This document shows positions 1,513 through 14,042 of a stretch of DNA of 64,000 bases, piece after piece. The DNA is from Crocinitomicaceae bacterium (lineage in GTDB: Bacteria > Bacteroidota > Bacteroidia > Flavobacteriales_D > Crocinitomicaceae): contig JAJTCM010000002.1 in the NCBI GenBank assembly GCA_021325675.1, forward strand, positions 248,001 to 312,000. The letters are read 5' to 3'. The notes under the pieces are model-generated. The model was not told the DNA's origin and ran no database searches. It was given only the letters and a program-made list of their open reading frames with translations. The position numbers and the translations under genes are program-made. Numbering within the stretch: the first letter of the stretch is position 1; each line of letters starts with the position of its first letter.

Positions 1513-3303
1513 TTAATTTCGGGTGTACCTCCGCCTTCTGAGGAAGAAAATAATAAAGGCAATGATAATGATCGTTAAGCTCGGCACTACCATGTTGACC
1601 ATTTTGTAAAAACCGGCTTCCCGCTTCACTTTTTCCTTATCGATTGCGTGTACGTCGATTTGCTTGCTGCGCAGGTCGAGCACGGAATTGTCGCCCATCA
1701 TGTAGTCCACGAGGTTTTGAAAAAATTCCTGGTTCCCGTAAACCAAAGGCTGCATCCCCTCGATTTTCGCCATGGTTTCGTCAAAGCGCAACCCGTTGAA
1801 AGCCGTCGGCCGGTAGAGCATTTTGCCGTTTTTGCCCGGCATGGAATCGTAGCTGTTTTCAATAAACGTTCCGTTACCGACAACCAGCACCTTTCCTTCT
1901 TTTATACTTTTTTCACTGAATTTTACTTCCGGGTTTTTGGCAAAGGCGTCAACGATCCTGTTTTTGTAATGGGATTCAAAATGTCCTTCCACCAAACCTG
2001 CCAGGCAAAGCTTATTATCTTCATCCTCCGGGTTTTGCGCCAGGATTGGGTTTGGCCCGTAATTCATCGGAAAAGCCAGGCTGATCAGCGGGGCGAGACC
2101 CGTCACGGAAGAATTCGTAGATGACGTCAGGATCGGTGAAGAAACATTGGTAGTGCTGTTGCCTACGAACTGTACTTCAGAAACATAGCGCAGCATCACC
2201 GGATCAAGGTTACGCGCAATCGGGTGGTTGGTTTGTGTAGCCCTCACGTCGAAGAACCAGGGGATCAGCGGCGTTTTGGAAGACGGGATCGCTTTTGGTG
2301 CACAGCGCACGTCGATCACGTAATTATCGTTTACCTTGATGCCGTAATCAAACAGCATTTTATCCAGCTCGAGGTTATAGCGCGTGGTATGCGCAATTCC
2401 CTTCATCGCCAGGGTATCCTTGTTGAGCTCCAGCTTGTCGAGGAAGCACATTAAGCGTCCGCCTTTCATCAGGAACTGGTCGATCAGGTATTTGTCCTTT
2501 TCGGAAAGCGGGCGTGTCGGGCGGGCAATGATCAAGCCTTTTACGCCTTTTAATGCATCCAGGGAATCGTTGAGGTAAATATCTTCTACTTTGTAGTAAG
2601 GCGAAATCAGGGAGCGTACGCGCTGCGTCTGCTGGTAGCTCAATTCTCCGTGTCCCTGCAGGAAAGCGATGCGCTGCTTTTCTTTCTGGGTGCTCCTTCT
2701 GAGCGCGCTGATGAGCATGTATTCCAGGTTGTTGATGGAATTCTGGATTTGCGCATCGAACTGTTCGCCAAGCGTGTAGTATTTTCCTTCAGGCGTGCCC
2801 GGCAGGAACTGGATATGGTTTACGGTGCTCCCGCCATATTCGATCCGTGCGCCCGGCCAAAGCAGCATTTGTGTCTGGGTACCGTCTTTCATGTAAGAAA
2901 GTCCCATCGGCATAATTCCTTTCGCTTTGGCATATAAATCTTCCCACAAAGCCCGCTTGTCCTCTTCTGAGCCTGCGTTCGGGTCAATGAATTCATACTC
3001 AAGGCGATTGCCGGCATATTGCTTAAATTCTTTCAGCTTGTCTTCCACTGCATTGCGGAAGCGTTTCAATTCGGCAGGAAGGTTCCCTTCGAGGTAAATT
3101 TTGAGAGACAAACGGTTATTGTAATCTTCATTTTCCGTCAGGAAGTCAATCGTTCCCTGTGAAAGCGAAAAGCGCTTGTCGGCCGTGGCATCGTAGCGGA
3201 AATAAAGATACGCGCCGATGATATTGACCAAAACAACCGCTGCAATGAAAATCAGCAGGAAAGTCCAGTTATAAACGCCTTTAAATAAGCTCTTTTTTTC
3301 CAT
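1513..3303 (-). CDS. gldG: Gliding motility ABC-type auxiliary protein GldG
   Basis: A 596-residue protein with a transmembrane helix near residues 14-36, a large extracytoplasmic part and a second helix near 567-588 followed by an arginine-rich tail. This architecture and the segments RYDATADKRFSLS and IAFLQGHGEL match GldG of the ABC_transp_aux family. GldG works with the permease GldF and the ATPase GldA in the envelope and is linked to gliding and T9SS in Flavobacteriia. The gene follows gldF by 3 bp. gldA is not in this window. Gliding itself cannot be inferred, since non-gliding relatives keep gldFG. Confidence 0.92.
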   Translation of the reverse strand: MEKKSLFKGVYNWTFLLIFIAAVVLVNIIGAYLYFRYDATADKRFSLSQGTIDFLTENEDYNNRLSLKIYLEGNLPAELKRFRNAVEDKLKEFKQYAGNRLEYEFIDPNAGSEEDKRALWEDLYAKAKGIMPMGLSYMKDGTQTQMLLWPGARIEYGGSTVNHIQFLPGTPEGKYYTLGEQFDAQIQNSINNLEYMLISALRRSTQKEKQRIAFLQGHGELSYQQTQRVRSLISPYYKVEDIYLNDSLDALKGVKGLIIARPTRPLSEKDKYLIDQFLMKGGRLMCFLDKLELNKDTLAMKGIAHTTRYNLELDKMLFDYGIKVNDNYVIDVRCAPKAIPSSKTPLIPWFFDVRATQTNHPIARNLDPVMLRYVSEVQFVGNSTTNVSSPILTSSTNSSVTGLAPLISLAFPMNYGPNPILAQNPEDEDNKLCLAGLVEGHFESHYKNRIVDAFAKNPEVKFSEKSIKEGKVLVVGNGTFIENSYDSMPGKNGKMLYRPTAFNGLRFDETMAKIEGMQPLVYGNQEFFQNLVDYMMGDNSVLDLRSKQIDVHAIDKEKVKREAGFYKMVNMVVPSLTIIIIAFIIFFLRRRRYTRN

Positions 3304-3306
3304 CGG

Positions 3307-4041
3307 TTATTTTTTAAGGGATTTGATCACGGTTAAGGCAGCAAAAATGAAAATGCTGATCACGCTCAGGAAATAAATGATATCGCTGGAATCGATCACG
3401 CCCCGCTTGATGGAATCATAATGGAAGCTGATGCCGCAGTATTTGATGATGTAATCAAAATCGCCCATGAGGTTGAAAGAGCCGAGAAGCGTGAGACCGT
3501 CGTAAAAAATCCAGCAGAAAAACATGGCGATAATGAAGGCCACGATCTGGCTGTTGGTGATGGAAGAAGCAAACAAACCGATGGCTACGAAAACCGAACC
3601 GAGCAAAATCAGCCCGATGTAAGAGGTGATCGTCGCACCGTGGTCGAAAGCTACCGTGTCATCGAGGGCAATGGTCGTCATGGAAATATAAAACACCAAA
3701 GTCGGGACCAGCGCGATAACCACGAGTGTAACCCCGGCCAGGTATTTTGCCAGTAAAATCTGTAAATCCGAAATCGGACGGGTAAAAAGCAGCTCAATGG
3801 TTCCCGTACGCCGCTCTTCGGCAATGGAACGCATGGTAATCGCCGGGATCAGGATCAAAAAAATCAGGGGCGACATGTTGAAAAAGGGGATCAGGTCCGC
3901 CTCCGACCCTTCCAGCAGGTTGGTGTTGTAGGAAATCACCCAGTGAAACAAACCGGAAGTTACCAGGAAGATCAGGATAAATGTATACCCGATCACGGAA
4001 CTTAAAAAACTTCGGATTTCCTTAAAATACAATGCTTTCAT
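3307..4041 (-). CDS. gldF: Gliding motility ABC transporter permease GldF
   Basis: An ABC-2 type permease of 244 residues with about six hydrophobic helices. The motif MRSIAEERRTGTIELLFTRP near residue 70 is characteristic of GldF-like permeases. The start was set at the ATG at 4041 (MKALYFKEIRSFLSS), which matches GldF N-termini; an upstream in-frame ATG at 4074 would add 11 residues and lies within a -7 promoter-like element. It is the first gene of a gldF-gldG-DUF4340 unit followed by dnaN. Confidence 0.92.
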   Translation of the reverse strand: MKALYFKEIRSFLSSVIGYTFILIFLVTSGLFHWVISYNTNLLEGSEADLIPFFNMSPLIFLILIPAITMRSIAEERRTGTIELLFTRPISDLQILLAKYLAGVTLVVIALVPTLVFYISMTTIALDDTVAFDHGATITSYIGLILLGSVFVAIGLFASSITNSQIVAFIIAMFFCWIFYDGLTLLGSFNLMGDFDYIIKYCGISFHYDSIKRGVIDSSDIIYFLSVISIFIFAALTVIKSLKK

Positions 4042-4071
4042 TGCGCGAACTGAATTTCGTTTAAAACTCGC

Positions 4072-4079
4072 CAAAAGTA
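4072..4079 (-). promoter_or_regulatory. Candidate -7 element for gldF
   Basis: On the minus strand this reads TACTTTTG, an exact match to the Bacteroidota -7 consensus TAnnTTTG, and lies about 30 bp before the gldF ATG at 4041. No TTG is seen at the expected -33 distance, so confidence is moderate. It favours 4041 over 4074 as the start. Confidence 0.45.
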
Positions 4080-4458
4080 CAAATAAAATTTGATTGTCAC
4101 CACAGGCCGCGGCTCAAAATTCGGAACTGTTTAGTAAAGCGGCTTAAGGGCTGAGCCTTTGTTGTCTTCCAACTTTTGAAAGGCAATTTTTTCGTTGCCA
4201 GGGAATAAGAGTATTTCTGAACTTACAAACTTTTGAGAATAATTTTAGTTCGGAGGAGCAGTTGTTATCCGTTATAATCTTAGCACGAGATTAGGTAAAG
4301 GATTTAGGCGATTACGATTTTTCAAATTGCTTTTCTTACACAAATCCGGTCTCAGATAAACGTTTATAACCGTCCTGAAAAATTAAAGGCAGTTAAAATT
4401 TTAAAAGCCATCGATGTAATTCGTGACTGCAAAAAACATAATCCGTATTTTTACACCC
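4080..4458. other. Intergenic region between divergent gldF and HAD gene, no gene seen
   Basis: About 380 bp of AT-rich DNA between the two divergent units. I see no open reading frame with coding character, no tRNA-like cloverleaf and no strong terminator. It presumably holds the promoter for the plus-strand HAD gene, but no exact TAnnTTTG was found there; TATTTTTA close to the HAD start is one base off. Confidence 0.5.
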
Positions 4459-5085
4459 ATGATCCACCAGGAAGTTGACGCCATCATTTTTGACCTCGGA
4501 GGGGTAATCCTTCACATCGATTACGATCTGACGAGGGATGCTTTCCGGGAATTGGGGCTTAAATCCTTTGATAAAATTTATTCCAAGGCGCAGCAAAGCG
4601 ATTTATTCGACCTCTTCGAAACGGGTAAAATCTCGGCGCAGCATTTTATCAATAATGTGCTCACCTTTTTGCCGGCGGGAATAACTGCAAATAAAGTGGT
4701 GAACGCCTGGAACAGTATGCTGCTGGAGTTTCCGCCGGAGACGATGGACTTTTTACGTGAGCTGAAAACCCGGAAACGTACCTTTTTACTGAGCAATACC
4801 AACGAAATTCATGTGCAGGCCTTCAAGCGCAAGCTCCGCAGCCAGATCGGCGAAGATTCCCTGGATCCTTTTTTCGAGCAGGTGTATTTTTCAAATGAGC
4901 TCGGGAAACGCAAGCCTTTTGCAGATACCTTTGACTATATTTGCAGACAAAACGGGCTCGTTCCTGAAAAAACATTGTTTATTGACGACAGCATCCAGCA
5001 CATCGAAGGAGCAGCGTCGATCGGTTTACAAACCTATCATTTTCAGACAAACGATTCACTTACGCATTTACTCGCCGGAATATGA
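4459..5085 (+). CDS. HAD superfamily hydrolase, subfamily IA
   Basis: A 208-residue predicted cytoplasmic phosphatase. Motif I is IIFDLGGV with the nucleophile Asp12, motif II is LLSNTN with Ser112, the motif III region has Lys150 and Lys152 in GKRKP, and motif IV is FIDDS with Asp176 and Asp177. An alpha-helical cap lies between motifs I and II. The DLGGV form of motif I is usual for YihX-like sugar phosphatases, but the substrate cannot be read from sequence. The ATG at 4459 was chosen because it places motif I at the usual distance; an upstream GTG at 4423 is less likely. It overlaps the next gene by 4 bp. Confidence 0.85.
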   Translation: MIHQEVDAIIFDLGGVILHIDYDLTRDAFRELGLKSFDKIYSKAQQSDLFDLFETGKISAQHFINNVLTFLPAGITANKVVNAWNSMLLEFPPETMDFLRELKTRKRTFLLSNTNEIHVQAFKRKLRSQIGEDSLDPFFEQVYFSNELGKRKPFADTFDYICRQNGLVPEKTLFIDDSIQHIEGAASIGLQTYHFQTNDSLTHLLAGI

Positions 5086-5384
5086 AACGCTATATTTTGA
5101 CTTTTTTCGCCTGTGCACTTGGAGTTGCCGCGATTTTCTTTTTAATTCCAATCAATCTTTTTGACGGTGAGATCGTCTTTGAAGTCAACGGGGTGGAATT
5201 CACTGAAAAGGCTAAAATAAGCCTGTCTTATTTCATTGGGATCGGCGCAAATGCAGAGCAAACGCAGGACGTAAAGGATTTCTACCTGCTGCCGATGGGA
5301 TACCTGATCGCTTTCCTGATGATTGGCGTTCTTCCGGCAATTATCACCTACCGGATTTATCTCAAGAACAAGCAAAAAGGCTGA
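5082..5384 (+). CDS. Small two-helix membrane protein of unknown function
   Basis: A 100-residue protein whose start codon overlaps the stop of the HAD hydrolase (ATGA), suggesting translational coupling. A hydrophobic segment spans about residues 4-24 and a second about 70-90, with a short polar region between. I do not recognise a family. Its stop codon lies directly against the end of the convergent gene that ends at 5385, so there is no intergenic space and no separate terminator. Confidence 0.6.
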   Translation: MKRYILTFFACALGVAAIFFLIPINLFDGEIVFEVNGVEFTEKAKISLSYFIGIGANAEQTQDVKDFYLLPMGYLIAFLMIGVLPAIITYRIYLKNKQKG

Positions 5385-5723
5385 TTATTTCCTGACAAAC
5401 TCAACCCGTACCAGCACCTGCTGAAATTTCGGGTAGTACGTTCCTGCTTCAAACTGCAATTGGCGCAATTCTTCTTCTGCAATCATTTTCGCCGGACTGG
5501 AAACAAAGCTGTCTTCCTTCACTTCTTCGCGAACGCCCGTAACTTTGCCTTCCCGGTTAACAGCCAGCTCAAAATACTTGATGCCTTTGTATTTTCCCTT
5601 GATCGTAAAAGTGTACGGCGTCACCAGCTTGCGGCCTTCGTCGAGCAACTCGCCGGAGATCAATTGGGCTTGTGAGAATTTCCCCGCAAGCAGGAACATA
5701 AAAAGGACCAGGATTTTTTTCAT
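5385..5723 (-). CDS. Small secreted protein with TonB-C-like fold, last gene of adhesin operon
   Basis: A 112-residue protein with a signal peptide (about residues 1-19, ending SQA). The mature part has ELAVNREGKVTGVREEV and a C-terminal VLVRVEFVRK, resembling the C-terminal domain of energy transducer TonB proteins, but without the membrane anchor and proline-rich arm, so it is not a normal TonB. The start overlaps the stop of the CPBP protease gene by 4 bp. The TonB-C resemblance is by eye and uncertain; a structure prediction would settle it. Confidence 0.6.
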   Translation of the reverse strand: MKKILVLFMFLLAGKFSQAQLISGELLDEGRKLVTPYTFTIKGKYKGIKYFELAVNREGKVTGVREEVKEDSFVSSPAKMIAEEELRQLQFEAGTYYPKFQQVLVRVEFVRK

Positions 5724-6622
5724 CGCTTCGTGTTTTTGGCAAATTTAGCAAATATCAATCCAAAATCCCAGCGAAAAATTTTGGCGTAAAGGAAAAGTAA
5801 AAGTGGGAACAGTACCAGCAAATTCAGCCAGATTTCCGGTGAAACGGACGGGGCGCTGTAATCCTTAAACAAAGCATCCGTCTGGAAAACCTGCCAGTTA
5901 TTCGTCAGGATCAGCGTAGCAAACAGGTTATTAGCCGCATGAAAACCCAGCGAAAGCTCCAGCCCGCGGTCCAGAACCGCCATCAGGGCCAGGAAAATTC
6001 CCGTTCCGAAGTAATACACCAGCACAATTTTGCCTAACAATCCGATTTCCGGGTTGCCCAGGTGCATCAGCCCAAAAAGCAGCGAGGTCAGCAGGATCGG
6101 CAGCCATGTGTTCGCTGAAGGAAAAGCATATTTAAACAGGTAGCCCCGGAAAAAAATTTCTTCGAAAGCCGTTTGCAAAGTCACCAAAACAAGCGAAAAA
6201 GCCAGCAGAGGCCAAAAAGAGGACGAATAATTCCAGCGCAGCTGATTTTCCTGCAGCAGCTCAAATAATAAAAAAACAAAAAGTACCAGCAGCCAGATAA
6301 AAAAGCTCAGGAGAGCACGTTTCCAGCGAAAAAAACCAGCTGATGTGATCATGGAAAGCGGCTTTTCGCGGTGCACAAAACGCACGCAAAGCAGCAAAGT
6401 AATTAACGTAAAAGCAAAAGGCAGCAATTGCAGGAAGAAAAAAAGATTTTTCCCGTAATAGCTCACCAAATCTGCTGTTTTGAACGTTTCTTCCCCGCTG
6501 GCTGATAAATAGATCAATCCTGGCACGGAAGAGCTCACCATGAGCGCCAGGGCAGAGAAAAGAACCGTTAAAAGTACCGGAACGAATTGATTTTTACCGG
6601 CAGCATGTTGTTCTGGCATCAA
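5720..6622 (-). CDS. CPBP family intramembrane metalloprotease
   Basis: A 300-residue polytopic membrane protein with about eight hydrophobic helices. The hallmark of the CPBP/Rce1 family is present: EEIFFRG with Glu154, Glu155 and Arg159, followed by the histidine motifs FGLMHLG and GFHAANN, which would form the metal site within the membrane. It overlaps both neighbours by 4 bp, between a PorP/SprF gene and a small secreted protein gene, which is an unusual place for this family. A role in processing or protecting the exported adhesin is possible but only inferred from the operon. Confidence 0.85.
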   Translation of the reverse strand: MMPEQHAAGKNQFVPVLLTVLFSALALMVSSSVPGLIYLSASGEETFKTADLVSYYGKNLFFFLQLLPFAFTLITLLLCVRFVHREKPLSMITSAGFFRWKRALLSFFIWLLVLFVFLLFELLQENQLRWNYSSSFWPLLAFSLVLVTLQTAFEEIFFRGYLFKYAFPSANTWLPILLTSLLFGLMHLGNPEIGLLGKIVLVYYFGTGIFLALMAVLDRGLELSLGFHAANNLFATLILTNNWQVFQTDALFKDYSAPSVSPEIWLNLLVLFPLLLFLYAKIFRWDFGLIFAKFAKNTKR

Positions 6623-7683
6623 TCAAATCCTTTAAAATCTTCCGGGCATTTGTATTTTTCACGCAAACGCTTCTGGTTCCTCATTTTGCGGAACATCACC
6701 CGGTCATCATAATCGATGATCAGACTGATTTCATGCGTCCCGATGGAAGACGTCCGCAAACGGGACATCGTCATATCGAAACTATAGGCAATGCGGTATG
6801 TTGTCTGGCGTTTCGGTGATAAATGCACGCCGGTCGTTACGATAAAAGAATCGTATTTTTTCGGAAGAAGCATATAATTCTGGTTCCTGAACCAAAAACC
6901 GGCAAAAAACGGCTTGTTGATCACGTTGAGACCCACCGTAAACGTTTCAAATTTGTTCTGACGTTCGTACACGACACCCGGTGCAAAAATGATTTTCCCA
7001 ATCAGGAAATTCATATTTCCGTGCGCAATCGATTTGATCGGCAAACGCTCCTGGTCTCCCAGGAAAGCATCCTTAGGAGTCGTCAGGTGATGAAACCCTG
7101 CACCGAAAGTCCCGGTAACCTTGCTGTAAAACCGGCGTCTCTTTTTCTGGCGGTTATTGAATTTCAAGGCCAGGCCCGTTCCGAAATCCGCATAAGAAAC
7201 CGATGAAAAGTTTGGCGTCCCGAAATTGGATTGGCGCACAACCCCGTGTACCTCATCCAGCTGATCGGAAAACACAAGCTTGCTCCAGTCAACGTATTTA
7301 TTGACAAAACCAGCGGAAAAACCGAGCTGCAAAAGGAAATTCTTCGATTCGATCGGGCGGTACATGTACTGGAAATTCGCTCCGCTCGTACGCAGGCTTC
7401 CTTCGCCCGCAACATCCGTATAAGCCTGTACCCCCAGACCGATTTTATTCACCGCTTCCGCCTCAAAGGAAACCGTGAGCGTATTGAATTTGCTTGGGAT
7501 TGGCGTCCAAAGGTTCCGCGTATTGGTGCGAAAGGTAAAGCCATTCCCGATAGCAACCATGCCCGGGTTATAATAAGTCGGATTATTATAAAACATCGAA
7601 AAATTCGGATCCTGCCCGAAAAGTAGTTTCGGAGTCCCCATCACAAGGCAAAGCGCTAAAATAAAAGTATAACGTTTTTCCAT
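6619..7683 (-). CDS. PorP/SprF family type IX secretion outer-membrane protein
   Basis: A 354-residue predicted outer-membrane beta-barrel. It has a signal peptide (about residues 1-23) followed by the family signature DPNFSMFYNNPTYYNPG, and later strands such as FGTGLALKFN. Proteins of this family work with T9SS cargo that carries type B C-terminal domains, as SprF does for SprB. The gene starts 3 bp after the stop of the giant adhesin, so it is very likely the dedicated partner of that protein. Confidence 0.92.
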   Translation of the reverse strand: MEKRYTFILALCLVMGTPKLLFGQDPNFSMFYNNPTYYNPGMVAIGNGFTFRTNTRNLWTPIPSKFNTLTVSFEAEAVNKIGLGVQAYTDVAGEGSLRTSGANFQYMYRPIESKNFLLQLGFSAGFVNKYVDWSKLVFSDQLDEVHGVVRQSNFGTPNFSSVSYADFGTGLALKFNNRQKKRRRFYSKVTGTFGAGFHHLTTPKDAFLGDQERLPIKSIAHGNMNFLIGKIIFAPGVVYERQNKFETFTVGLNVINKPFFAGFWFRNQNYMLLPKKYDSFIVTTGVHLSPKRQTTYRIAYSFDMTMSRLRTSSIGTHEISLIIDYDDRVMFRKMRNQKRLREKYKCPEDFKGFD

Positions 7684-7685
7684 AA

Positions 7686-10600
7686 TTACCTGATTACTGT
7701 TACTGTTCCCGCACGTTTAAAGCGTCCGTCCGGGTATTGTTTTCCGTCCCATTGATCTGACGTCATGAAAGTCGCTTCTATCTTCCACACATAGGCATCC
7801 TGCTGCACCGGAGCACCTTTATACGTTCCATCCCATCCTTCCGTCGGTCGGCCGTAACCATCCAGTGCCGTTGTTTCCCACAAGAGGTTGCCCCAGTCAT
7901 CGTAAATCGTCAGGCGGTAGCTGTACAAGCCTACCCCTTTCGGAATGAAATGTGAAACCTCAAAATCCGGGTGGCCCGGGTTCATGGCATTGGCTACGTG
8001 CAGGCCTTTGTAATAATCCACTGTGATAATACGCGAAATCGAGTCCACACAGCCGTTTTCATTTGTCGCAATAAGCGTAATCACTTCATTCCCGAAATGA
8101 TCGAACTGGTAACGCGGGTTCACGGCGGTAGAAGTTGAATCGCCCTCCAGTCTCCATAAATAAGAATGAGCGTATGCGGACATATTTATCAAATCAATCG
8201 TTCCGTTCACAAGATCTTCCTCTTCCACATTGATATAGTTGAAGTTAGCGATCGGCGTTACGTTGATCGTGATTGGCTGTGCGGCAAACATAGTATCGCT
8301 GCATCCTCCGTCCCCGTAGGCTACTACCGTTACGAAATAATCTCCCGGGTCTTCATATTCATAAAATACCACATTCCCGGAAAGCGTATTGCCGTCACCC
8401 ATAAACCAGCGCACGGAATCTGCCTGCGAGCTGATGGATGTTCCCGTAAAGCTTTCACCCACGCACATCACCATATCCGAAACCACGAAATTGGCGGCCG
8501 GCGGCTGGAAAATCGTTACATCCCGGATCAGGGAATCGGAGCATCCATATTGGTTCGTTGCTACAAGCTTGATGAAATAAGTTCCGGGCGCGTCGTAAAA
8601 TACACTTGGGTTCGTCAGCGTTGATGTAGCCGAGTTACCAAAATTCCAGTTGTATGAAATCGCCCCTGAAGACGTATTTCCAAAGAACGCCTGGCTCGGT
8701 AAATGACACGTATCTATGGAAAGAACATCGAAATTAGCCGTTGGTACCGGGAAAACCTGGACAAGCTGCTCCATGGAATCCTTACAGCCGATATTATTTT
8801 CCACCATCAGCTGCACCGTATAAACCCCTGGCTCAGTATAAATGTGGCTCGGGCTGGACAAACCGGAGAAATTATTGTCCCCGAAATCCCAGGAAACGAA
8901 ATTGAAGTTCGTACTTGAGTTTGTAAACGATGTTGTGGCAGGAATACAGCCGTCACCCGCAGTAATGGAAAAATCCGCAACAGGAGTGCTTGCCACCGTT
9001 ACCGGGTGGGTCACGCTCGCCTGGCAGGCAAACAAGCTGCTCACACCGCTCAGGGTTACATTGTATACGCCGCTCTGCGTAAAAATATGCGTTGGATTGC
9101 TCAATGCGGAATTGCTGCCGTCATCAAAATCCCAGGATAAGCTGGAAACGTCCGTAGATTGGTTGGTAAACTCAAAAGGCAGGCCGACGCACTGTGAATT
9201 CGGCGTAAAGGTGAAATCGATGTCAGGCTGCGGATGAACCGTAATTGTTGCAAATGACGTATCGCGGCTGCAGGCGTCGTTCACGATCAGGCGAACGTTA
9301 TATGTTCCGGCATCCGTAAACGTATTGGAAGTTTGCGCCGTATTGGAAACGTTTCCATCGTCAAAATTCCAGTTGAACTGCTCTGCGCCTGCCGAAATAC
9401 TTGTGAAATCAACCGTTAGCGGTGCACAGCCCTCGGTAATATTGGTGTTGAAGAAAGAATTAACACTCGTCGGAAGCACATGAATATCATGGAAAGCTGT
9501 GTCCGCGCCGCATTCGTTCGTTACGATCAGGCGGATTGTGAAAGTCGTATCTTCCAGTCCTGTGATGAAAATGCGGCTGAAAAGCGAATCTTCCGTATTG
9601 GACGTTGTCCCGTTGCCGAAATCCCAGCTGTAAGTATCAGGTAGACCTACGCTGATATTGGCAAAATCAACCGTAAAAGGAGAACAGCCTTCGTCAAATG
9701 CAGGCCCGAAAATCGCAGTCGGGTCAGGCATTACTTTCACGGAATCCGTTTTGCTCACTGTTCCGCAGAAATTCGTTACGTCGAGGGTAATGTAATATGT
9801 TGTATCGGCAATCACGCCGGCAGTATACGTTTGTGAGCCCGGGTTCTGGCTGGCTGAGCTTGCCCCGTTGCCAAAATCCCAGCTGAAAACCAAAGCGCCG
9901 ATCCCGGTAGAAGTATTCGTGAAATTCGCAGTCAGCGGCCCGCAGGCAGAATCCGGCAAAACGATGAAATTGGCTATCGGCGGTTCGCGCACTTCGATTG
10001 TCTGTGTCAGGGAATCCACACAGCCGAAAACTGTCGTTGCTACCAGCTGGATATCGAAAAACCCGGTGGATGAGTACGTATGGATCGGGCTGACGTTGTG
10101 ATTGATCGCTGTATTGTCGCCAAAGTCCCAGTCATAAGTGTCCCCCAGCAAGGTGTTGTTCGTAAAGCTTTCCGGGTTTCCTTCGCAGATTATCGGGCTG
10201 AAATCGAACATTACCGTTGGCAGCGGACGGATCGTGGCAATCACATCATCTGTATTGACACATTGTGTCACCGGATCGGTATAAGTATAGGTAATGGTAT
10301 TCGCACCGATCGGCGTTACCGAAGGGTCGAATGTTCCGAATGTAGCGTTGGTAATTCCGTTTCCTGACCAGCTTCCTCCTGAAGGTGTACCGATGAAATT
10401 AAAAGCAGGCTCGGATTCACAGAATTCAACATCATCACCCGCGTCAACGATCGGCAGGGCGTGAACGATCAATTCCATTGTGTCACGCGTCAAACAGTTT
10501 CCGCCCCCGAAGGAATAAACCATTTCATAAGTTCCCGGGTTATTTGGCGTATAATTCCCGTTTCCGGCAATTCCGGGGCCCGTCCATGTTCCGCCAGCAG

Positions 10601-13600
10601 GCAAACCTGTCAGCTGGGTCATTGTGTTGGAAAAACACATTTCGAGATCGCTACCGGCATTTGCCTGTGAAGGATCAACAACCGTCACCACCATACTGTC
10701 CGTTGCTGAACAGGAAGAAAGCGTAAACCCGTAATACAGGGTAAACGTTCCTACGCCCGAAGGTGTGAAAACACCACCAGCTGTGACATTCGGCCCGCTC
10801 CAGGTTCCACCCGCAGGCAAGCCGTTAAATTGTACCGGCAAAGGCTGGTTACATAAAGTCGTATCGTTACCCGCGTTTACCACCGGCAGCGGATTAACAT
10901 TCGCAATCACATCATCCGTATTGCTGCAGTTTGTTACCGGGTCAGTATAAGTATACGTTAAAGTATGCGCTCCGTTTCCTGCCACCTGGGGATCAAATGT
11001 ACCGTTCGGGTTAGTAATTCCATTACCTGTCCATGTTCCGCCCGTCAGGTTGGGGTTCGCCGAAAGATCAACCGTCCCGCCGTCAAAACAAATCGTAAAA
11101 TCATTGCCTGCGTCCACTACCGGTGCCGGGTTAACAATGAAATCCATCACATCGCTTGTCTGGCAGGTTCCGCTTCCGAAGCTGTAAGTCATCGTGAAAG
11201 TTCCTGGCACAGTCGGATCGTAAACGCCGCCCGGAGTGATTCCTGCACCGCTCCACGTTCCTCCGGCCGGTAAACCCGTCAGCTGAACATTCGCGCCGTT
11301 TTCACAAACCGTTGAATCGTCACCGGCATCAGCATTCGTTGGGTCGATTACCGTTACAATAATTGTATCCTCATTGAAGCAGCCGTTGCCGTCCGTAAAT
11401 GAATAATGTATTTCAAAGCTTCCCGTTCCGGAAGGTGTAAACTCGCCGTCGGGATCAGTAATTCCCGTTCCTGACCACACCCCGTTTGGCGGTGTCACCG
11501 GCGTTAAGGTATTAGCAATTGGCTGGTTACACAACGAAACATCTGCCCCTGCATTTACAACCGGCAAAGCGTTTACGGTAGCCAAAATATCGTCAGAATA
11601 AATACAGGATGTTCCCGGATCAACAAAAGTATACGTCAGCGTATGAACGCCTGCACCCGCAGCTGCCGGATCAAACAGGCCTGCCGCCGAGATTCCCGGC
11701 CCGGACCAGGTTCCCCCTGCCGGCGTGATTGCTGTTATGGTATAAGGATCATCGTCGACGCAATTGCTTACGTTTGGACCGGCATTCACCACCGTTATCG
11801 GTAAAACTACGAGGTCAACGCTTTGCGTCACACCTGAGCAGGAGCCAAAAGAAGCAAAAACGGTGTAAGTTCCTTCATCTGCGGCCGATGCATTCGGTAT
11901 AACGGGGTTTTGCTGGTTGGATGAAAAGCCGTTCGGGCCGCTCCAGTTATAGGTTGCACCAACAACAGTATCTGAGAAAAATTCAGCGTCGTAACCGGCA
12001 CACAAAGGAGAAACCGTAATCGGGTTCAGAGCCGGTGGAACATTATTTACAGTCAGTCCGGTAGTTGCCACATCAGATCCGCAGCCATTTGTAGCCGTCA
12101 GCGTGATGGTATACGAACCATTAGTCGGATAAGTAATGAAACCCGGCACCGGGTTGGTCGAAGATGTTGTTGACGCCCCGGGGAAATCCCACTGATACGT
12201 ATTGATCGATTCCTGGCAGTCGTTGTAAACAGCCGTTGGATTAATGTTTTGTCCGCCGCAAATACTGGATACGGCGTTAATGGCAATTTCCGGTGGCGCC
12301 TGGGCAACTACCTGTTCCGTATGCGTGATGTTCCCGCAACTGTTCGACAAGGTCAGGTGAACGCTGTAAATACCCGGTGAATTGAAAGCAAACTGCGGCT
12401 CTACTGTTTGGGCATTCGTCCCGTTGATGAAATTCCGCGAGCCGGAAGCCGGGTTACAGGTTGCCTGGTCAAAAGTCGTAGACCAGTTCCGCGTCACAGC
12501 ACAAATATCAACCGTGGAAGACAGATCGTCTGTAGTTACGTTAAACGGTACGCAGGAAGAAGCGGGGTTGAGATTGAAATCCGGTACAGGTGCAGCTTCC
12601 ACACAAACGAGGGCTGTATCCGTTGTTGTACCGCACGAGTTGGAAGTGCTGAGAACAACTTCGTAAATTCCCGGCGTCGTATAAACGTGGGTTACCCCCG
12701 TAGCCGTTGCCGAGTTGACCGTTTGTGTCTGTCCATCGCCGAAATCCCATAAGAAATTGGTAAACCGCGAGCAGGCACCGTTGTAGCCGAGGTCCGTATT
12801 GTTGAACATTGTCGCCGTCGTGTTGACACACAAGCTTGTAGGTGTAACGTTCAGATCAGCAATCGGCGGCGCCGTAATCCGGATCCCACCTACCGTGGCC
12901 AGCGTCGAGCTGCATAAGTTCACTGCTTCGATACTGAATGTATAAGCCTGGCCCGGAAGCGGACAGGAAGATTCCAGGTAAGTATGACAAATCTGGGCAG
13001 GCGGCGGGTGACTGAAGGTATCAACCGCTGAGCCGTCGCCGTAATCCACGAGGTAAGTTGTCGTATTGTGGTTTCCGGCAATACCGGTAATCTGGATACA
13101 GATTTCGAGCGGTGCGCAGCCAACAGTGTTCCCCAGGGAAATTAAACCAATGGACGGATTACTGGTACTCGCCACGGGGATAATCGTGGAGTCGCGGCAG
13201 CCGTTGCTTCCCGTTATCGCATAAATGAGGTCGAAAACACCTTCGGTTGAATACGTGTGGCTTACTCCCGCTCCCGGAAAAGTCGGGGCTGTAAAATCAC
13301 CTGTTCCGTCGCCCCATATAATCTGGAAATTGCTGTTGCCTGCCGTTCCTGAGTTATCAAAAACCTCCAGGCTAAACGTCGCGCCGTTACCGCAGTTGCG
13401 GAAGCTGGTCATCGGATCAACAAGGTCCGGCCCAGGAGTCTGGCGAACAGTGACGGTTTGTGTGCTCGTTGCCGTACAGCCGGCAGGACTCGTCGTTGTA
13501 AGCGTTACTGTAAAGTTTTGCGTAGCCGTACCAACAGCCGTGAAAATATGTGTCGGGTGCTGTAAAGTTGAAGTATTGGAAGCGCCGGAGCCCGGATCGC

Positions 13601-14042
13601 CAAAGTTCCAGGAATAAGTTGCCCCGCCCGTAGAAGTATTGGTAAACTGGATCGGCAGGTTGGCGCATTGGTTGTTCCCACCGGAAAAAGTAAAGGAAGA
13701 AGTCGGGTTGGGCGCGGCCGTTACCGTAACGTTGTCAGTTGCTACACAGCCGTTATCATCCGTAACCGTAACCGTATAGGTACGTGTTGTCGCTGTTGTT
13801 GAAGTTGGGTTCGCACAATCCGTACAGCTCAAAAAAGCTGCCGGCGTCCAGGCATACGTATAAGGCGCTGTTCCACCGCTGGCAGTCGGCGTCCAGCCGA
13901 GCTGAACAGATCCTGCAGGACAAATGAACAGATCAGCCCCTGCTTCAGCCTGGCACTGCGAAAACAAATTATTTTGCACAAAAAAGATGCACAAAAAGGC
14001 AAAGAAAAACGCGCTGAAAATTTTGGGTAATTGTATTTTCAT
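7686..14042 (-). CDS. Giant PKD-repeat adhesin with gliding-type (type B) C-terminal sorting domain
   Basis: A 2118-residue secreted protein. The start is set at the ATG at 14042 because it opens a clear signal peptide (MKIQLPKIFSAFFFAFL, cleavage near residue 29); the frame is open upstream to 14162, but that part is not signal-like. Residues about 30-745 hold PKD-like modules (motifs such as WNFGDPG and WDFGDGQ). Residues about 745-1275 hold seven tandem modules with the pattern AGxDxxxC...GGTWSGxGI. Residues about 1280-1990 hold more PKD modules (WDFGNG, WDFDDG, WNFGNS). The end (DDWGNLLWET...GWDGTYKG) is the CHU_C/TIGR04131 domain used for T9SS export. It heads the operon with PorP/SprF. 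Probable cell-surface adhesin; ligand unknown. Confidence 0.92.
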   Translation of the reverse strand: MKIQLPKIFSAFFFAFLCIFFVQNNLFSQCQAEAGADLFICPAGSVQLGWTPTASGGTAPYTYAWTPAAFLSCTDCANPTSTTATTRTYTVTVTDDNGCVATDNVTVTAAPNPTSSFTFSGGNNQCANLPIQFTNTSTGGATYSWNFGDPGSGASNTSTLQHPTHIFTAVGTATQNFTVTLTTTSPAGCTATSTQTVTVRQTPGPDLVDPMTSFRNCGNGATFSLEVFDNSGTAGNSNFQIIWGDGTGDFTAPTFPGAGVSHTYSTEGVFDLIYAITGSNGCRDSTIIPVASTSNPSIGLISLGNTVGCAPLEICIQITGIAGNHNTTTYLVDYGDGSAVDTFSHPPPAQICHTYLESSCPLPGQAYTFSIEAVNLCSSTLATVGGIRITAPPIADLNVTPTSLCVNTTATMFNNTDLGYNGACSRFTNFLWDFGDGQTQTVNSATATGVTHVYTTPGIYEVVLSTSNSCGTTTDTALVCVEAAPVPDFNLNPASSCVPFNVTTDDLSSTVDICAVTRNWSTTFDQATCNPASGSRNFINGTNAQTVEPQFAFNSPGIYSVHLTLSNSCGNITHTEQVVAQAPPEIAINAVSSICGGQNINPTAVYNDCQESINTYQWDFPGASTTSSTNPVPGFITYPTNGSYTITLTATNGCGSDVATTGLTVNNVPPALNPITVSPLCAGYDAEFFSDTVVGATYNWSGPNGFSSNQQNPVIPNASAADEGTYTVFASFGSCSGVTQSVDLVVLPITVVNAGPNVSNCVDDDPYTITAITPAGGTWSGPGISAAGLFDPAAAGAGVHTLTYTFVDPGTSCIYSDDILATVNALPVVNAGADVSLCNQPIANTLTPVTPPNGVWSGTGITDPDGEFTPSGTGSFEIHYSFTDGNGCFNEDTIIVTVIDPTNADAGDDSTVCENGANVQLTGLPAGGTWSGAGITPGGVYDPTVPGTFTMTYSFGSGTCQTSDVMDFIVNPAPVVDAGNDFTICFDGGTVDLSANPNLTGGTWTGNGITNPNGTFDPQVAGNGAHTLTYTYTDPVTNCSNTDDVIANVNPLPVVNAGNDTTLCNQPLPVQFNGLPAGGTWSGPNVTAGGVFTPSGVGTFTLYYGFTLSSCSATDSMVVTVVDPSQANAGSDLEMCFSNTMTQLTGLPAGGTWTGPGIAGNGNYTPNNPGTYEMVYSFGGGNCLTRDTMELIVHALPIVDAGDDVEFCESEPAFNFIGTPSGGSWSGNGITNATFGTFDPSVTPIGANTITYTYTDPVTQCVNTDDVIATIRPLPTVMFDFSPIICEGNPESFTNNTLLGDTYDWDFGDNTAINHNVSPIHTYSSTGFFDIQLVATTVFGCVDSLTQTIEVREPPIANFIVLPDSACGPLTANFTNTSTGIGALVFSWDFGNGASSASQNPGSQTYTAGVIADTTYYITLDVTNFCGTVSKTDSVKVMPDPTAIFGPAFDEGCSPFTVDFANISVGLPDTYSWDFGNGTTSNTEDSLFSRIFITGLEDTTFTIRLIVTNECGADTAFHDIHVLPTSVNSFFNTNITEGCAPLTVDFTSISAGAEQFNWNFDDGNVSNTAQTSNTFTDAGTYNVRLIVNDACSRDTSFATITVHPQPDIDFTFTPNSQCVGLPFEFTNQSTDVSSLSWDFDDGSNSALSNPTHIFTQSGVYNVTLSGVSSLFACQASVTHPVTVASTPVADFSITAGDGCIPATTSFTNSSTNFNFVSWDFGDNNFSGLSSPSHIYTEPGVYTVQLMVENNIGCKDSMEQLVQVFPVPTANFDVLSIDTCHLPSQAFFGNTSSGAISYNWNFGNSATSTLTNPSVFYDAPGTYFIKLVATNQYGCSDSLIRDVTIFQPPAANFVVSDMVMCVGESFTGTSISSQADSVRWFMGDGNTLSGNVVFYEYEDPGDYFVTVVAYGDGGCSDTMFAAQPITINVTPIANFNYINVEEEDLVNGTIDLINMSAYAHSYLWRLEGDSTSTAVNPRYQFDHFGNEVITLIATNENGCVDSISRIITVDYYKGLHVANAMNPGHPDFEVSHFIPKGVGLYSYRLTIYDDWGNLLWETTALDGYGRPTEGWDGTYKGAPVQQDAYVWKIEATFMTSDQWDGKQYPDGRFKRAGTVTVIR

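Follow-up and report, generated by a model that had tools for sequence, protein, structure and literature searches.

Four adjacent genes of a Crocinitomicaceae bacterium, encoding a giant adhesin, a PorP/SprF-family outer-membrane carrier, a CPBP/Rce1-like intramembrane protease, and a small secreted TonB-C-like protein, probably represent two modules (adhesin with carrier, and protease with small protein) and not one four-part machine. The first-pass annotation of the window (the whole 64,000-nucleotide stretch analyzed here) had read their tight coupling as a sign of a task shared by all four. This proposal was not sustained by the relatives; the full four-gene order was present in three of the five genomes of the window genus (g1) and was not found outside that genus among the genomes examined, and the protease and small-protein genes were located at other, mostly housekeeping, sites elsewhere. 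Tight packing in an operon can thus point to a common task for which the gene order of relatives gives no support. The solid part of this block is an SprB/SprF-like adhesin with its carrier, and the local arrangement is one of two core genes placed behind them. Genus (g) and family labels are used as handles, and several of the compared genomes are draft MAGs.

Positions 5385 to 14042 of the window were occupied by four co-directional open reading frames, arranged head to tail on the minus strand; the gene calls of the first pass were confirmed, coordinates unchanged, by the reading frames and by domain matches. Two 4-bp overlaps had been described, of which that between the CPBP gene and the small gene was a true ATGA overlap; that between PorP and CPBP measured 4 bp only with a TTG start and 1 bp (TGATG) with an ATG start. 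The adhesin and PorP genes were separated by 2 bp. This spacing fits a single transcript for the four genes in the window genome, and the CPBP and small genes probably share the adhesin-carrier transcript. The overlaps and spacing of the window were not conserved among relatives. With ATG starts, the PorP-CPBP gap was 2 bp in genome G061 and 21 bp in G034, and the CPBP-small junction was a 19-bp gap in G061 and an 8-bp overlap in G034; 8 bp separated CPBP and the small gene in G014, and PorP-CPBP gaps in genus g15 were 63 to 69 bp, with about 520 bp in G015. The small gene converged, with adjacent stops, on a plus-strand gene encoding a 100-aa membrane protein that belongs to no known family, the start of which was overlapped by a HAD-family phosphatase gene (window 4423 to 5384, plus strand).

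Adhesin and PorP/SprF carrier

The adhesin (7686 to 14042, minus strand; 2,118 aa, with a signal peptide and many PKD domains) matched PF18911 in 14 stretches (E = 3.6e-121) and PF00801 in 12 stretches. Its last 110 aa (7689 to 8018, minus strand) carried a putative, divergent type IX secretion system (T9SS) type B C-terminal signal, scoring 24.8 bits against TIGR04131, under the curated cut-off of 35; the same profile was matched by 10/10 adhesin orthologue C-termini scanned (best E = 3.2e-6). The carrier (6619 to 7683, minus strand; 354 aa) matched PF11751 (E = 1.4e-36) and TIGR03519 (E = 6.9e-49; 166.9 bits, above the cut-off of 90.55) and is a confident member of the PorP/SprF family, to which 11 matches were found in the window genome. 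Orthologues of this PorP were found in 37 of 150 family genomes, spanning nine genera (g1, g2, g8, g10, g11, g14, g15, g17, and g18). At 35 loci, an adhesin with a closely related, type B-like C-terminus stood immediately before PorP, and the junction measured −4 to +12 bp at almost every one of them, bearing out the first-pass expectation of a T9SS pair. SprA and GldJ were also found in the window genome, and homologues of GldG and GldF (1513 to 4074, minus strand; TIGR03521, 378.7 bits, and TIGR03518, 274 bits, both slightly under cut-off) sit a few kilobases from the adhesin block. Two loci of G049 (L078 and L077) contained an apparent adhesin-PorP tandem, in which two PorP ends on a single contig flank a 3,177-aa adhesin.

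In Flavobacterium johnsoniae, SprB is bound by SprF, and the current view is that a type B cargo protein has a dedicated PorP-like protein as its anchor (PMC9143113). The window pair resembled SprB-SprF in its giant repeat adhesin, type B-like C-terminus, directly adjoining PorP/SprF-family carrier gene, and carrier C-tail cysteine, and in the presence of SprA and GldJ in the genome; it differed in the divergence of its type B signal and in the CPBP and small genes that follow the carrier. Adhesin and carrier are a known, ordinary kind of functional pair, of the SprB/SprF type. Using its type B signal, the adhesin would cross the outer membrane via the T9SS and would then be kept on the surface by its own carrier, as SprB is by SprF; it is most likely a carrier-held surface adhesin, possibly one for gliding.

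One cysteine was present in the last nine residues of the carrier (KYKCPEDFKGFD) at all 38 loci holding a PorP C-terminus (the window and 37 others); in the window, its codon lies at 6646 to 6648 (minus strand). The SprF-GldK disulfide of F. johnsoniae runs through a Cys-Xaa-Cys tail of SprF; in Porphyromonas gingivalis, the tail of PorG likewise carries just one cysteine, and this residue is essential (PMC12635249). Compared with SprF, the window carrier has one C-tail cysteine (CPxDF), through which it may be attached to the GldK track. With its single invariant cysteine, this carrier family allows the recent disulfide-attachment model of gliding to be tested in a distantly related family. 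Two cysteines, at positions −16 and −4, are retained by a PorP paralogue encoded close to the recG-small region (g10, g17, g18, and others).

CPBP protease and its genomic sites

The third gene (5720 to 6619, or to 6622 with the TTG start; minus strand) encodes a 299-aa protein matching PF02517 (E = 6.9e-16), with intact CPBP motifs EExxxR, FxxxH, and HxxxN, of which E153, E154, R158, F182, H186, H227, and N231 were invariant in seven CPBP orthologues. Judged by domain and motifs, it is a predicted CPBP/Rce1-like protease, sharing these motifs and the Rce1-like Pfam domain with the CPBP glutamic intramembrane proteases Rce1, MmRce1, and myxosortase MrtX (PMC11980579). Myxosortase sorts Myxococcus surface proteins; the present gene differs from these proteases in that its counterpart in most relatives follows dnaJ, with no evident tagged cargo gene. 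Assignment to the sorting enzymes MrtS, MrtJ, or MrtP was set aside because scores were far under the cut-offs. A Riemerella mutant of a CPBP protein (225 aa) has a lipopolysaccharide defect (PMC6142336), so proteases of this type can affect the envelope.

CPBP was detected in 187/240 family genomes, nearly always as a single gene. Outside g1 and g15, dnaJ lay directly upstream of CPBP at 27 of the 32 loci inspected, usually with grpE before dnaJ (flanking genes other than these two were named by eye), and this arrangement extended over five genera (g10, g11, g17, g18, and g22). At three g2 loci, CPBP stood without dnaJ and preceded the same ABC-type pair that follows CPBP in g11 and g17; at two g8 loci, it was at other sites. 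No CPBP gene was found after dnaJ any more in g1 or g15. CPBP is followed in g15 by another, shorter gene of the PorP/SprF family, so that the order becomes adhesin-PorP-CPBP-PorP2 (L044, 2043 to 2900; L045, 3252 to 4118; L046, 5887 to 6744). The small gene followed recG in many genera and preceded DUF4290-murA in g15 and g19, with grpE-dnaJ further along.

Gene order in relatives and alternative readings

CPBP adjoined the small gene in all five g1 genomes, in two of which (G014 and G049) the adhesin pair was missing from in front of them. The three genomes with the complete block (the window genome, G061, and G034) shared only 43 to 51% protease identity; the search across relatives that the first pass had proposed found the order confined to one genus, though not to close strains, and its retention at this divergence is more than chance. 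In g15, four of five genomes had adhesin-PorP-CPBP without the small gene, so that the three genes were adjacent in 7/10 genomes of these two related genera. Pair and CPBP were far apart in g11, g17, and g18, where CPBP followed dnaJ.

Two empty sites were identified. G014 had the order porE-like gene, CPBP, small gene, DUF4290, murA, and G034 had porE-like gene, adhesin, PorP, CPBP, small gene, DUF4290, murA, with 67% (PorE-like), 73% (DUF4290), and 84% (MurA) identity between the shared genes. At the second site, a flanking gene that we take to be paaA-like (82 to 84% identical between G050 and G035/G015) was followed by CPBP in G050, and the adhesin and PorP genes intervened in G035 and G015. 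CPBP can therefore occur with or without the adhesin pair ahead of it; in G014, the persistence of the porE-like gene would be consistent with loss of the pair. In G049, CPBP, the small gene, and a YceI gene lay behind a serine peptidase gene, with adhesin-PorP copies on other contigs; its close relative G061 had adhesin-PorP at the site of the peptidase.

Among the 150 genomes, CPBP was found in 35/37 with a PorP orthologue and in 76/113 without (Fisher P = 5e-4, uncorrected for phylogeny), and by genus in 9/9 with PorP versus 3/15 without; the two PorP genomes lacking CPBP were incomplete or fragmented. The small family was present in 30/37 and 78/113 genomes, respectively, an association with no statistical support (P = 0.21); five of the seven PorP genomes without a detected member belonged to g2. 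In a DnaN tree (built without G014 and G012), the PorP-bearing genera fell in one clade, which also held g22, where CPBP was present in most genomes and this PorP was absent. Phylogeny thus confounds the co-occurrence of adhesin and CPBP. The first-pass suggestion that CPBP processes the cargo or its partner accordingly gains from the 35/37 count and loses from the fact that both genes mark one clade.

A single four-part unit, in which the protease and the TonB-C-like protein act on the adhesin or its carrier, by processing it or by assisting its export, would account for the tight spacing in the window genome, for the same order in G061 and G034 at such low protease identity, for adhesin-PorP-CPBP in most g15 genomes, and for CPBP in nearly all genomes with the pair's PorP, and myxosortase offers a CPBP precedent for sorting surface proteins (PMC11980579). 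We nevertheless regard it as very improbable, because CPBP and the small gene remain neighbors without the pair in G014 and G049, both are at other sites in other genera, seven genomes keep PorP without the small family, and the adhesin C-terminus is T9SS type B-like and not a membrane-anchored tag of the kind cut by myxosortase. The adjacency in two related genera and the genus-level co-occurrence of PorP and CPBP also agree with a smaller unit made up of adhesin, PorP, and CPBP, in which the protease serves the adhesin and the small protein is a bystander; such a unit would have arisen in the last ancestor shared by g1 and g15 and would since have been disrupted in three genomes. This reading too is unlikely: in g15, PorP and CPBP are widely spaced (63 to about 520 bp) and CPBP has a second PorP-like gene behind it, G014 retains CPBP in the absence of the pair, G049 and G050 retain it with the pair located elsewhere, pair and CPBP are apart in the dnaJ-linked genera, and g22 has CPBP without this PorP. 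There is likewise a small chance that in the g1/g15 lineage CPBP (in g1 together with the TonB-C-like protein) took on the maturation or release of the giant type B adhesin or its carrier; if true, this would constitute a display unit of the T9SS that has an intramembrane protease of its own.

The reading as two modules has its own difficulties, namely that adjacency in 7 of 10 genomes exceeds the expectation for a neutral recent arrangement, that CPBP is commoner in genomes with the adhesin's PorP than in those without (35/37 against 76/113), and that the type B signal in the window is under curated cut-offs. According to this two-module reading, CPBP and the small TonB-C-like protein are core genes whose roles in the envelope would not depend on the adhesin. 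In the window genus, they would have left their usual sites (CPBP after grpE-dnaJ; the small gene after recG or before DUF4290-murA) and become neighbors, and in some species they lie behind the adhesin-carrier pair, probably on the same transcript.

The small TonB-C-like protein

The last gene (5385 to 5723, minus strand) encodes a 112-aa protein with a predicted TonB/TolA C-terminal domain fold, its layout being a signal peptide with the domain immediately after it, and neither a transmembrane anchor nor a periplasm-spanning linker. The protein alone had no match in single-sequence Pfam and NCBIfam scans; among 33 members of its family, 12 matched TIGR01352 (best E = 8.9e-6), 10 matched PF03544, and 21 matched NF033768 (AgmX/PglI tail). 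In other families of the same order, a profile of the small family matched the C-termini of TonB-like proteins that are 250 to 290 aa long and have a hydrophobic segment at the N terminus (E = 4e-12 to 1e-6); outside the bacterial family, these longer TonB-like proteins were its only matches, and far weaker ones. An AlphaFold2 model built from two sequences had a mean pLDDT of 72.5 (core, about 74 to 91), and its best 24 structural matches were all TonB/TolA C-domain chains (Z = 3.7 to 5.6; next, unrelated, 2.5). Structural Z scores under 8 are middling and the Foldseek E values exceeded 0.2, so the fold was read jointly with the profile evidence. A profile-profile alignment to four TonB domains encoded by the window genome covered mainly the signal peptide plus one domain stretch and was not taken as evidence.

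By profile homology and predicted fold, the protein is a TonB/TolA C-domain, as the first-pass annotation had recognized in describing it as TonB-C-like and unanchored. It differs from TonB and TolA proteins in lacking anchor and linker, and for this reason should be unable to transduce energy as TonB does; the earlier idea that it energizes export is therefore unlikely. A second unanchored TonB-C protein was present in the window genome (locus L159), so the lack of an anchor is not unique to the small protein. As a by-product of this analysis, an unanchored TonB/TolA C-domain protein was found to be spread across the whole family (126/240 genomes and 21/24 genera, nearly always once per genome). 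Two tandem members followed recG in G004 (L151, 9188 to 9906).
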